Source: Gordonia jinghuaiqii
GTDB lineage: Bacteria; Actinomycetota; Actinomycetes; Mycobacteriales; Mycobacteriaceae
DNA length: 64,000 bases
Assembly: GCF_014041935.1 (NCBI RefSeq)
Contig: NZ_CP059491.1
Location: 3,224,001 to 3,288,000, forward strand
Reading direction: 5' to 3'
The position numbers and the translations under genes were made by a program. Within the stretch, counting starts at the first letter, position 1. Each line of letters begins with the position of its first letter. Below, one piece after another: positions 58,263-63,355 of this stretch. The notes under the pieces are model-generated. The model saw only the letters and a list, made by a program, of their open reading frames with translations, was not told the DNA's origin and ran no database searches.

Positions 58263-59950
58263 CGTCCGGCGGTGGTCGAACCGGCGATCCGGTGCGCGGC
58301 GTCGGCGAAGGCGTCGCCTCGCCTGCCGTATCCGGCGAACATGTCCAGCGACGCCGCGGCGGGCGCGAGGAGTACCGCGTCGGGCGTCGGGTCTGAGGTC
58401 GTGGCGAGCGCCCAGGCCTCCTCGACGGCCCGGTCCATGACCGCGACGGCAGTCGCCCGTTCCGTTTCCGCGACGCCGGCCTGCTTGTCCGGGACGGCGG
58501 TCGGCGACTCCGAGGTGTCGGAGGTGCGGTAGGTGTCGGGGAGCCGGTCAGGGCTTGCGAGCGGGGAGTCGGGAGCGGGCAGTCCCGGGCGATGCGCGTT
58601 CACCGTGCCATCGTCCCCTGTGAATACTGTGACTGTTGGGACTTCTGGGGCGTGTCGCGCGATCGCCTCGACAACCAGCGATCGATCTCGGCCGATGGCG
58701 ACCACGCCGGCGAGCCGGTCGCCCACCGCCACGAGCATGTCGTCGAGCGAGGCGCCCTTGAGCAGGCCTCCCGCGATGAGCACCACCCGGCCGAACGCCG
58801 AGATCGCGGCCTGCGCGGCGTGCGGATTGGTGGCCTTGGAGTCGTCGACGAAGGCGATTCCCTCGCGGGTGGCCACCACCTCTCCCCGATGTCGCGCCGG
58901 GCGGAACGCACTGAGCCCGGCGCGCACGGCGTTCCCGTCGACGCCGATGGCCAACGCGAGCGCGGCGGCTGCGAGCGCGTCGGACACGCCGGACGGACCG
59001 GCCGGGCTGACCTCGTCGGCGGCGTACAGCGGCCCGGCGCCGAAGGCGCGGTCCACCAGCTGCCCGTCGACGACGCCGAGCTGGCCCGGCCCGGGCGGGC
59101 CGAGGGTGAATCCGACACGACGTCCCGACGCCGGGAGCCCGGAGGCGACCGCGTCGTCGAGTCCGACGACCGAGATCGCACCGCGCAGGGCGCCGGCCTT
59201 GGCCGCTGCGTAGGCCTCGAAGGTGCCGTGCCAGTCCAGGTGGTCGTCGGCGACGTTGAGCACGACGCCGGCGTCGGGCCGGATCGACGGCGCCCAGTGC
59301 AGCTGGAACGACGACAGTTCGGCACACAGGACGTCGACGCGTGGGGTGGCGCGCATCGCGTCGAGAACGGGCAGCCCGATGTTGCCGCAGGCCGCGCCCG
59401 CACGTCCCGAGGCGTCGATGATCCCGGCCAGCATCGAGGTGGTCGTCGTCTTGCCGTTGGTGCCGGTGACCACCAGCCAGGTGCGCGGCTCACCGAGCAG
59501 GCCTGCCGCGTCGACCCGCCAGGCCAGCTCGACCTCGCCCCAGACGGGGATGCCGGCGTCGGCGGCGGCCGTGACGAGCGCGTTGGTGGGCGCGAAGCCC
59601 GGTGACACGACCACGACCGCGGTGTGGGCGGTCCATGCGGGGTCGGCGAGGAGGTCGGCCGTCGCGACGGGTTCGACGCCCTGCGACGTCAGTTCGGCCA
59701 CTCCGGTGACCGCGTCGATCGCCGACCGCCTGGCGTCGGGGTCGGCCGCACGGGTGGCGAAGCGGTCGTCGGCGAGCAGGACGTGGACGCCCAGGGTGAC
59801 CAGGTAGCGGGTGGCGGACATCCCGGCGGTCCCCGCGCCGCCGACGACGACCGTGCGTCCGGCCAACCCGAGTGCGGCCGCACCCTCGGGCCCGGTCACG
59901 GGGGCTACCGGCGAGGACAGATCAGCTGAGGAGGGATCCGGCTCAACCAT
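58259..59950 (-). CDS. murD: UDP-MurNAc-L-Ala--D-glutamate ligase
   Basis: 563 residues. Rossmann-like start ([24 protein letters not shown]), ATP site [21 protein letters not shown] (~163), [33 protein letters not shown], and C-terminal [17 protein letters not shown] with [14 protein letters not shown] ~54-residue low-complexity insertion near residues 445-498 ([20 protein letters not shown] region) sits in the C-terminal domain and makes the protein longer than usual. Overlaps mraY by 8 bp and ftsW by 4 bp. Confidence 0.95.
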
Positions 59951-61040
59951 TGGCGGTCAGGAACTCGCCGTAGAACAGCGACAGGCCGAGTGCGCAGGCG
60001 ATGGCGGTGAGCAGCCAGAACCTGATGATCACCGTCGTCTCGGCCCAGCCCCCGAGTTCGAAGTGGTGATGGAACGGGGCCATCCGGAACACTCGTCGTC
60101 CGGTGGTCCGGAAGAAGGCGATCTGGATCACCACCGACATGATCTCGGCGACGAACAGCGCGCCGATGACGACGGCGAGGAGTTCGGTTCGGGTGGTGAT
60201 CGACAGGCCGGCGAGCATGCCGCCGAGCGCCAGCGACCCGGTGTCGCCCATGAAGATCTTGGCCGGTGCGGCGTTCCACCACAGGAAGCCGAGGCAGGCG
60301 CCGCCGCCGGCCACCGCGATGAGGGCGAGGTCGAGCGGGTCGCGGACCTGGTAGCAACCGGTGGGGATGTCGCTGGGCGGTTTGGCACCGCCCGCGCAGG
60401 CGTTGACGAACTGGAAGAAGGTGACCAGGACGTAGGAGCCCAGGACCATGGCCATCGAACCGGCCGCCAGACCGTCGAGTCCGTCGGTGAAGTTCACCGC
60501 GTTGGACCAGGCGGCGACGACGAGCCAGCAGAACACCACGAAGACGACGGCGCCGAGCGAGATGGCGTCGATGTCGCGGACGTAGGACAGGTTGGTGCTG
60601 GCCGGGGTGTAGCCGTAGTCGTTGCGGAACTGCAGGACCAGGATGCCGAACAGGATCGCGGCGATGAACTGCCCGATCGACTTGGCGGTCTTGTTCAGCC
60701 CCAGGTTCCGGTGTTTGCGGATCTTGATCATGTCGTCGAGGAAGCCGACCATGCCCAGCGCGGTCGCCAGGCCCAGGACCAGCAGGCCCGACGCGGTGGG
60801 TCCGTTACCCCCGTCGGTGAACACCCCGATGAGGTGCGAGCCGAAGTAGCCCGCCCAGAGCGCCGCGAGGATCGCCACCCCGCCCATCGACGGTGTGCCG
60901 CGCTTGGTCTGGTGACTCTTCGGGCCCTCGACCCGGATCTCCTGGCCGAATCCCTGCCGGGAGAACACCTTGACCAGGACGGGGGTCAGCAGGATCGACA
61001 CCGCGATCGCGATCGCACCCGCCAAGAGGATCTGTGTCAC
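59943..61040 (-). CDS. mraY: Phospho-MurNAc-pentapeptide transferase (MraY)
   Basis: 365 residues, about ten helices. Makes lipid I by moving phospho-MurNAc-pentapeptide to decaprenyl phosphate. Motifs [31 protein letters not shown] (Asp pair), [28 protein letters not shown] and [10 protein letters not shown] are all present. GTG start preceded by GAGGG. Upstream is a 126-bp spacer with imperfect repeats (CTGTCCCCGCTCACGCTT type), then the MurF-like gene. Confidence 0.97.
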
Positions 61041-61166: not shown

Positions 61167-61694
61167 TCACGTCGGGTCCCCTCCCGGCGTCGAGGCGTCG
61201 ACGGGCTGCCATCCGCAGCGCGCACCCCAGGCGTCGACGACCGAGTCGAGGTCGGCGCCCGCGGCGGCGACGAGGATGACGTCACCGGCGGCCGGCCGCC
61301 AGTCCGGATCGACGTCGACGAGTTCGGCCGCGTCGGAAACGGTGGCGACGATGCGCGCCTCGTCGCCCCAGGACCCTTCCATGACCGCCCCCTGGTGCAG
61401 CGCGTGCACCGAACGCGAATCCCCCACGCAGAGAGTCTTGTCGACTGCCAGCCGGACCGCCAGACGACCCAGCAGATCGTGTTCGACGACGCGCTGGTTC
61501 TCCGGGACGCCCTCGGGTGAGGCGAGTTCGGCGATGATCGCCCAGGTACGGGGCCGTCCCGTGCCGCGGGAGCCCGCAGGTTCTACACCGCGGGCGGAGC
61601 CCGCAAATTCTACGAGGCGTCGTACCAGGAGGCGTGCGTCGTCGACCGTCACCGGTGTCTCCCCGCGGATCACCGTGACGTGGGGTGCGGTCAT
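61167..61694 (-). CDS. Stand-alone MurF C-terminal-domain protein (truncated MurF, likely non-catalytic)
   Basis: 175 residues in the normal murF slot between murE and mraY; ATG overlaps the murE stop (ATGA). The body resembles domain 3 of MurF: TWAIIAELASPEG (MurF: SWAVLGEM-ELG), EHDLLGRLAVRLAVDKTLCVGD (EHDRIGRLAVRL-VSRLVVVG), HALHQGAVMEGSWGD (AMHHGAVLEGAWG) and GDVILVAAAGADL (GDVVLVKAS-AAGL). The first ~45 residues match the start of that domain (VTVDDA), but the conserved YNANP after DDA is missing. There is no N-terminal domain and no GKT ATP site, so it cannot be a complete ligase. Third-position GC is high and the frame is intact, so it looks kept rather than decayed. A complete MurF must be encoded elsewhere or replaced. 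Confidence 0.8.
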   Translation of the reverse strand: MTAPHVTVIRGETPVTVDDARLLVRRLVEFAGSARGVEPAGSRGTGRPRTWAIIAELASPEGVPENQRVVEHDLLGRLAVRLAVDKTLCVGDSRSVHALHQGAVMEGSWGDEARIVATVSDAAELVDVDPDWRPAAGDVILVAAAGADLDSVVDAWGARCGWQPVDASTPGGDPT

Positions 61695-63355
61695 CGATCA
61701 CCCTCGGTCGTCGCGCCCGGGGCCGGGGCGTCAGGCGCCGGGGGTCCGGTCACCGATGCCAGCGCTTCGGCGACGACCTCCCGGTCGTCGAACGGATGCT
61801 TCACGCCGTCGATCTCCTGCCCTGCTTCGTGTCCTTTGCCCGCGACCAGGACGATGTCGCCCGGCCGGGCCCAGCCGATGGCCTCGATGATCGCCGCGGC
61901 ACGGTCGCCGACCTCGCGCACCGGTTCGGCGCCCGCGGGCCGGTCGGAGTCCGCGACCGAGCGCGCTCCGGCGAGCACTTCTGAACGGATCGCGGCGGGA
62001 TCTTCGGTGCGCGGGTTGTCGTCGGTGACGATGACGAGTTCGGCGCCGCGCGCGGCGGCGTCGCCCATGAGCGGACGCTTGCTGGTGTCGCGATCTCCGC
62101 CTGCACCGAGGACGACGGCCACCCGGCCCGTCGTCTGTTCCCGCAGCGTCGCCAGGACTGCCTGCACGGCACCGGGTTTGTGGGCGTAGTCCACCAGCGC
62201 GAGGAAGGGTTGTCCCAGGTCGATGCGCTGCAGCCGGCCCGGCACACTCACCGATGCGACGGCGTCGAGGGCCGTGGAGATCGACACCCCGGCCGCGTGG
62301 GCGACGGCCACCGCGAGCAACCCGTTGGCCACGTTGTAGCGGCCGGGCAGCGGGATGAGGAGTTCGTGGTCGCCGTCGGGTTCGGTGAACGGTGTCTTGG
62401 AGGTGCCATCCGCGGCGAGGTGGGACTCACCGGCGTGCCAGTGCGCGGGCGTCGGCCCGGTCGAGACCGTGATCGGCTGCAGGTGGGCCGCCTCACCGGG
62501 GCGGCGCGCGAGTTCGGCCATACGTCTGCCCCATTCGTCGTCGACGCAGACGACGGCGCGGACCGCGTGGGTCGGAGACGAGGGGACGAACAGCTGCGCT
62601 TTGGCGTCGAAGTAGGCGCGCATCGTCGAATGGAAGTCGAGATGATCCTGCGAGAGGTTGGTGAACGCGCCGATGGCGAAGTGTGCGCCGTCGACCCGTC
62701 CGAGCGCGAGTGCGTGGCTCGACACCTCCATGACGACGACGTCCACGCCGTCCTCGAGCATCGCCGCGAGCAGTGCCTGGAGGGTGGGAGCCTCCGGTGT
62801 CGTCAGCGTGCTCGGCTGGGCGACCCCGTTCACGCGCGTCTCCACCGTCCCGATCAGACCCACCGAATGGCCCGCGGCCAGCAGTGCGGCCTCGACGAGG
62901 TAGGACGTGGTGGTCTTGCCCGATGTCCCGGTGATCCCGATCAGCTTGAGTCGCTGCGACGGGTTGCCGTACACCCGGGCGCTCACGTTGCCGAGGATGG
63001 TGCGCGGTGCGGGGTGGACGAGGACCGCGACGGCCGTCTCCGGCGGGAGCACGCGGGCGAGTTCGGCCCGGCCGGCCGGGTCGGTGAGGATGACTGTCGC
63101 ACCCGCGGCCACGGCCTGATCGGCGAACCGCGCACCGTGTGTGGCCGCACCGGGCAATGCGGCGAACAGGTCGCCCGGCGCCACCTCCTGGGCGCGCAGG
63201 GTCACCCCGGTCACGCTCGTCTCCCGGTCGGCGCCGCCGACGAGATCGAGTCGGGCACCGGTCGCCGTGGACAGCACGGCGACGGGTGTCGGTGTGACCT
63301 CGCGTGGCCGAATGGGTCCGCCGGCACGGCCAGATGATCGTCGACGAGACGCCAT
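61691..63355 (-). CDS. murE: UDP-MurNAc-tripeptide synthetase (meso-DAP adding)
   Basis: 554 residues. N-terminal UDP-MurNAc domain (VTGVTLRAQEVAPGDLFAALPGAATHGARF), ATP site LIGITGTSGKTTTSYLVEAALL (~145), TNLSQDHLDFHSTMRAYFDAKAQLF, and VDYAHKPGAVQAVLATLRE. The DNPR motif in VTDDNPRTEDPAAIRSEVLAG selects meso-diaminopimelate, matching the expected wall type. Tail extended by Pro/Ala. It is translationally coupled to the MurF-like gene. Confidence 0.96.
   Translation of the reverse strand: MASRRRSSGRAGGPIRPREVTPTPVAVLSTATGARLDLVGGADRETSVTGVTLRAQEVAPGDLFAALPGAATHGARFADQAVAAGATVILTDPAGRAELARVLPPETAVAVLVHPAPRTILGNVSARVYGNPSQRLKLIGITGTSGKTTTSYLVEAALLAAGHSVGLIGTVETRVNGVAQPSTLTTPEAPTLQALLAAMLEDGVDVVVMEVSSHALALGRVDGAHFAIGAFTNLSQDHLDFHSTMRAYFDAKAQLFVPSSPTHAVRAVVCVDDEWGRRMAELARRPGEAAHLQPITVSTGPTPAHWHAGESHLAADGTSKTPFTEPDGDHELLIPLPGRYNVANGLLAVAVAHAAGVSISTALDAVASVSVPGRLQRIDLGQPFLALVDYAHKPGAVQAVLATLREQTTGRVAVVLGAGGDRDTSKRPLMGDAAARGAELVIVTDDNPRTEDPAAIRSEVLAGARSVADSDRPAGAEPVREVGDRAAAIIEAIGWARPGDIVLVAGKGHEAGQEIDGVKHPFDDREVVAEALASVTGPPAPDAPAPGATTEGDR

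Follow-up and report, generated by a model that had tools for sequence, protein, structure and literature searches.

An orphan MurF domain between murE and mraY

The window analysed here is a stretch of 64,000 nucleotides from the Gordonia jinghuaiqii genome that includes ligase genes of the dcw cluster. On its minus strand a complete murE (61691..63355, 554 aa) ends at 61691 and mraY (59943..61040), the downstream neighbour in all 79 loci described below, starts at 61040, leaving a gap of 650 bp. The only gene at the murF position is an intact ORF at 61167..61694 on the same strand, with an ATG start and a TGA stop, which encodes 175 aa corresponding to a stand-alone MurF C-terminal domain (domain 3), hereafter the orphan. 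Its start codon overlaps the murE stop in the sequence ATGA (61691..61694, minus strand). The remaining dcw ligases are full-size ORFs of 554 aa (MurE), 563 aa (MurD) and 529 aa (MurC). A first-pass annotation made from the DNA letters had described this murF slot as holding a single ATGA-coupled MurF domain 3 of 175 codons among otherwise complete ligases, and the sequence, the alignment and the predicted fold all agree with that description.

Profile searches place the window orphan at the far end of MurF. TIGR01143 (murF) matches it over model positions 344–417 of 418 with an E value of 0.0015 and 17.6 bits, below the cut-off of 288.6, and Pfam Mur_ligase_C (PF02875) gives an E value of 0.1 and 13.9 bits for a cut-off of 28.4. 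At E≤0.01 TIGR01143 matches 24 of 37 orphans and PF02875 matches 17 of 37. The orphan also aligns with the C-terminal part of the full-length MurFs found at the same locus in sister genera, and as a query it finds matches in 264 of 301 family genomes, orphans and full-length MurFs being counted together. Its predicted fold is that of MurF domain 3 (pLDDT 92.9, pTM 0.88), with MurF ranked first in VIA. Foldseek with this model returned two matches at E≤0.001, both with modest scores, one being Mpl and the other what we take to be MurF. The sole match of the orphan profile to sequences of solved structures, a copper-transporting ATPase, was weak (E 0.065) and was taken as chance.

The absence of the other parts of the enzyme, claimed in the first-pass annotation for the UMN-binding domain, the GKT ATP site and YNANP, is confirmed. 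The orphan has no Pfam Mur_ligase match and the alignment covers domain 3 alone, which leaves no UMN-binding domain; it has no Mur_ligase_M match and its predicted model is one alpha/beta domain, which leaves no central ATP-binding (GKT) domain; and NANP occurs in 0 of 79 orphans. Named database entries among the best 120 relatives are mostly called 'UDP-N-acetylmuramoyl-tripeptide--D-alanyl-D-alanine ligase', with some 'hypothetical protein' or 'glutamate ligase domain-containing protein'. Judged by its sequence, the orphan very likely lacks the ligase activity that its usual database name claims for it.

The orphan is intact at 79 loci in six genera

We classified 79 orphan loci from the Gordonia/Williamsia clade: 59 from g1 (Gordonia), nine from g10 and eight from g18 (Williamsia), and one each from g7 (Gordonia jinhuaensis), g12 and g16. 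Comparison of the murE-mraY interval in relatives, which had been proposed as a check, revealed an intact reading frame at every one of them, with 61 orphans as separate genes and 18 continuous with murE, and all 59 g1 genomes have the orphan. When the first in-frame start is taken, 58 of the 61 separate copies overlap the murE stop by the four nucleotides NTGA, the exceptions being L080, L091 and L116. The named set, which comprises the best 80 of 470 confirmed stretches, contains 34 separate orphans, 11 MurE fusions, 34 full murF genes (in Nocardia, Rhodococcus, Rhodococcoides and Tsukamurella) and one locus cut by a contig end. The locus was also fetched in 20 of 25 other genera, 18 of which have a full-murF interval between murE and mraY. 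The other two, L202 and L204, gave no match to the orphan query and have a full MurF in the fetched stretch together with murE and mraY.

The interval from murE to mraY measures 458–688 bp where the orphan is a separate gene (61 loci), compared with 1,475–1,762 bp in 52 full-murF loci, a class set by script as intervals of at least 800 bp. The short interval recurs in independent assemblies of many species, and this rules out an assembly error with about 1 kb of missing sequence, the circumstance named beforehand as one that would undo the annotation. In a tree of MurE plus MraY built from 24 of the 79 orphan loci and 20 other rows, the orphan carriers form one side of a branch (support 99/94) that adjoins the Tsukamurella (g30) row; the simplest reading of this sequence-based tree would be a single displacement event.

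Two kinds of apparent irregularity were resolved from coordinates and frame lengths. In-match stops in G012 (L117), L078, L091 and L092 are the gene's own C-terminal stop codon, at which the match ends or which it overruns. Open frames of 600–780 aa in part of the genus might have passed for full MurFs; they proved to be fusions with MurE, except in L030, where a long open frame precedes a separate gene.

The orphan is under protein-level constraint

Nei-Gojobori substitution rates were calculated from 24 pairs of closely related separate copies, picked by hand. The orphan has a median dN/dS of 0.20 and a maximum of 0.32 in these pairs, and its conserved core has a median of 0.077. The values for its neighbours are 0.105 (murE) and 0.02 (mraY), so that the orphan evolves faster than either. 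The orphan is thus constrained at the protein level, more loosely than murE or mraY, and the median of 0.20 upholds the earlier suggestion of present selection.

A complete MurF of probable foreign origin lies elsewhere in the genome

The first-pass annotation had called for a whole-genome search for a complete MurF, and such a gene exists. In the G. jinghuaiqii genome (one contig, 5.18 Mb, 100% complete) TIGR01143 exceeds its cut-off at one place, C1:431389-432612, with 376.9 bits. The corresponding gene (C1:431308-432618, 437 aa) has the three Pfam Mur domains, carries both NANP and VK[AG]S, and lies more than 2 Mb from the orphan. Seven other TIGR01143 places fall below the cut-off; these include dcw ligases and a second MurE-like protein and exclude the orphan. 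The annotation had offered as one option that a full murF lies elsewhere and that the orphan is a relic. The first half of that option is correct; the second does not agree with 79 intact copies out of 79 and with purifying selection.

The complete murF forms a divergent pair with ddl (L009:5068-7622, C1 about 430067-432621), which is the only good Ddl match in the genome, a second place matching over part of the protein with an E value of 5e-4. The genes for both D-Ala-D-Ala steps thus stand together at this pair, away from the dcw cluster. This replacement MurF is present in 59 of 59 Gordonia (g1) genomes, and its gene is divergent from ddl in 29 of 30 fetched copies. It accompanies the orphan in all 70 genomes searched for both (59 from g1 and 11 others). 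In a survey of 38 genomes from 31 genera, MurFs 64–100% identical to the replacement were confined to g1, g7, g10, g12, g16 and g18, with MurFs of 45–57% identity in the other genera; three genomes (two from g10, one from g23) had a further weak match of 30–31% identity, and one genome, 66% complete, had no MurF match.

Outside the clade, in 296 genomes of the class, the replacement MurF finds its best matches among the MurFs of other orders (55% identity, E 3e-99), and the native MurFs of its own family score below these (best E 1e-78). A quick, unrooted MurF tree of 14 replacement, 20 native and eight other-order sequences unites the native MurFs in one clade (100*) and the replacement MurFs in another (100*), with the other-order MurFs between them. 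This separation leaves a duplication within the family unsupported and, together with the best matches in other orders, fits a horizontal gain. We infer that the complete MurF probably came from outside the family and took the place of the native enzyme. Regarding the ddl-murF pair itself, a link to glycopeptide resistance was considered and set aside: the available text of PMC8698665 places murF next to van genes in actinobacteria of other orders, mentions one Williamsia with van genes, and contains nothing on a Gordonia/Williamsia locus of this kind.

The edge predicted to lie opposite the former active site is conserved

We asked which residues of domain 3 were kept by aligning the 79 orphans with 54 rows of full MurF (20 family genomes and 34 named loci, at least two genomes being present twice) and 30 replacement MurFs. 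The catalytic motifs have disappeared from the orphans. Codons 11–19 of the window orphan (61638..61664, minus strand) align with the DxYNANPDS of full MurFs and codons 143–145 (61260..61268, minus strand) with their K-A-S, and both motifs are lost. V[KR][AG]S is found in 0 of 79 orphans but in every full MurF row (54 of 54) and every replacement MurF (30 of 30).

Two other segments have been retained. The first is the helix H72-L82 (H-D-x-x-G-R-x-x-V-R-L; codons at 61449..61481, minus strand), marked by conservation among the orphans: D73, G76, R77, V80 and R81 do not vary among the 37 A1 orphans and are 99–100% conserved in the 79. The second is the loop Q101-E112 (Q-G-A-V-M-E-G-S-W-G-D-E; codons at 61359..61394, minus strand), in which EGSWG is invariant in the same 37. 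EGSW occurs in 79 of 79 orphans and in 52 of 54 full MurF rows and is absent from all 30 replacement MurFs. It is also present in five of seven readable full dcw MurFs of other actinobacterial orders, an eighth being unreadable. The two full rows that lack it are L202 and L204, from sister genera, and the other-order dcw MurFs that lack it are L224 and L226.

To quantify retention, columns at least 90% conserved in full MurF were sorted by the predicted alpha/beta order. At the strand-to-helix (catalytic) edge, where YNANP and KAS are situated, two of 30 conserved positions are kept and 28 are lost. This is contrasted by 14 of 17 kept at the opposite, helix-to-strand edge, among them R77, R81, EGSWG.E and D138; positions outside both edges are kept in four of 19 cases. 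The contrast in retention between the two edges has a Fisher P of 2e-7, with edge limits that were set by the author from the DSSP string of the predicted model rather than from coordinates. On the catalytic edge G91 and R94, both retained from full MurF, likewise show no variation among the 37 A1 orphans, and they are the only residues of that edge of which this is true.

The orphan is fused to MurE in 18 Gordonia genomes

In 18 loci, all in g1 (18 of 59 genomes of the genus), the orphan domain is an in-frame C-terminal extension of MurE, and the complete fused proteins of 679–700 aa consist of MurE and one further domain. Among the named loci, drawn from the best 80 of 470 confirmed stretches, the fused species include G. 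asplenii, G. effusa, G. malaquae, G. hydrophobica, G. sihwensis and G. hirsuta. On a quick tree of the 79 rows, with SH-aLRT support only, the fusion state requires five changes, four of which are forced by starred, well-supported branches. Because the NTGA overlap would allow fusion by a small indel, such recurrence is weaker evidence than it would be for distant genes. The separate orphans of L091 and L092 are nested in the fused group on this tree and may be recent fissions of murE and the domain. A predicted model of the fused protein (pTM 0.76) leaves the placement of the orphan on MurE unfixed. The first-pass annotation had suggested a new role for the domain, as a partner of MurE or as a subunit of a split MurF; the 18 fusions and their state changes support the former, and the complete MurF elsewhere speaks against the latter.

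A putative docking module for MurE

On balance we think it probable that the orphan, the original MurF domain 3 without its catalytic motifs and kept at 79 of 79 loci, is a docking module that links MurE to the machinery of wall synthesis by way of the domain edge that, in the predicted model, points away from the former active site. The ancestral MurF would have had two functions: its chemistry, and a contact through the rear of domain 3. The second, non-catalytic surface of the native actinobacterial enzyme would comprise R77, V80, R81, EGSWG.E and D138 and would be missing from the incoming MurF. The incoming enzyme may have taken over the chemistry, and since it did not bring the contact surface, domain 3 alone could not have been discarded. 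Constraint would then have been lifted from the catalytic edge and maintained on the opposite one, in precisely the clade whose complete MurF lacks the motif of that edge. As the fusions and the overlap indicate, MurE would be what is brought to the contact. The full MurFs of some relatives are without EGSW, and the proposed function would therefore be dispensable or absent in them.

Candidates for the partner would include MraY, MurG, FtsW, Wag31 and the replacement MurF. The nature of the partner may be approached from M. tuberculosis, in which all four Mur ligases are reported to contact FtsZ, FtsW, FtsQ, Wag31, a SepF orthologue and PknA/B and, in the available text of that report, have no contacts with one another (PMC3605390). 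A direct contact between MurE and the orphan is thus not predicted from the text of that study, and by analogy its contacts would favour a partner in the growth machinery over direct Mur-Mur contact.

A dedicated MurE subunit, which would bind the enzyme to stabilize or regulate it and do no docking beyond that, would explain the same genomic association, as MurE is the one partner to which the genomes point directly, through the 18 in-frame fusions and the NTGA overlap in 58 of 61 separate copies. However, the kept residues are also conserved in the full MurFs of sister genera, where they are separate from MurE, and no such MurE extension was seen at the 52 loci of relatives with a full murF. 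We therefore regard this explanation as unlikely, if worth keeping in mind. A role in trans, in which the orphan would serve the replacement MurF as an adaptor or split-MurF subunit and supply a surface that the foreign enzyme lacks, agrees with the distribution of EGSW (79 of 79 orphans, 0 of 30 replacement MurFs) and with the joint presence of the two proteins in 70 of 70 genomes. Yet the replacement MurF is complete in its three Pfam Mur domains, NANP and VK[AG]S, the fusion partner is MurE and not MurF, and the two genes are more than 2 Mb apart in G. jinghuaiqii, which makes such an arrangement quite improbable. A new ligand-binding or enzymatic function at a remodelled catalytic edge would account for the invariance of G91 and R94, kept from full MurF, within an alpha/beta fold, but the loss of 28 of 30 conserved positions there, with no further residue invariant in the 37 orphans, leads us to doubt it strongly. 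A decaying relic of the displaced murF, open by chance, would fit the missing catalytic motifs and the faster evolution relative to murE and mraY but is contradicted by the intact frames in six genera with no broken copy among 79, by dN/dS (0.20, core 0.08), by the invariance of EGSWG and by the confidently predicted fold, and we give it hardly any credence.

More tentatively, and with slightly more doubt than confidence, we propose that MurF could be a moonlighting enzyme in actinobacteria, in which the domain-3 edge away from the active site (R..VR, QG, EGSWG.E) would be a docking surface needed independently of catalysis; in Gordonia and Williamsia a foreign MurF would have taken the chemistry, and the docking surface would have survived as a single-domain protein that is now MurE's. 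The way in which the cytoplasmic enzymes of peptidoglycan synthesis are built into the growth machinery is still an open question. Here evolution has apparently divided an essential enzyme into its chemistry and a second conserved property, the latter kept in every genome examined. EGSWG and its neighbours thus represent a specific surface to mutate in the ordinary full-length MurFs of the order, and the orphan offers a small, single-domain bait for finding partners. The MurFs of L202 and L204, being without EGSW, could assist a partner search by phylogenetic profile.

Relation to known systems

Compared with the C-terminal domain of MurF (TIGR01143), the orphan shares the domain-3 fold and differs in having no UMN-binding domain, ATP-binding domain, YNANP or VK[AG]S and in scoring 17.6 bits against the cut-off of 288.6. 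Its relation to MurT of MurT-GatD (lipid II amidation), an enzyme that carries an ATP-binding domain of its own, was not seen to go beyond the Mur fold. PAP11, the MurE-like component of the plastid-encoded RNA polymerase, is a whole MurE-like protein of plastids in another complex, a parallel rather than a functional relative. The bifunctional MurE-MurF of Bordetella, as described in the available text of PMC6420597, is alike in carrying MurF-derived sequence on the C-terminus of MurE, but has 945 residues and contains a whole active MurF, whereas the Gordonia fusions have domain 3 after MurE and a separate complete MurF. Titles and abstract openings of open-licence PMC articles yielded no truncated MurF, no MurF domain fused to MurE and no displaced murF in Gordonia or Williamsia. 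Against that literature the orphan represents a familiar domain in a single-domain, non-catalytic state, and the whole MurE-MurF fusion of Bordetella comes nearest to it.

We also note that G. jinghuaiqii encodes a second MurE-like ligase of 566 aa (L010:5613-7313, minus strand; C1 about 4409612-4411312), which exceeds the TIGR01085 (murE) cut-off, lies far from the dcw cluster and has DESP where the MurE of the window has DNPR.
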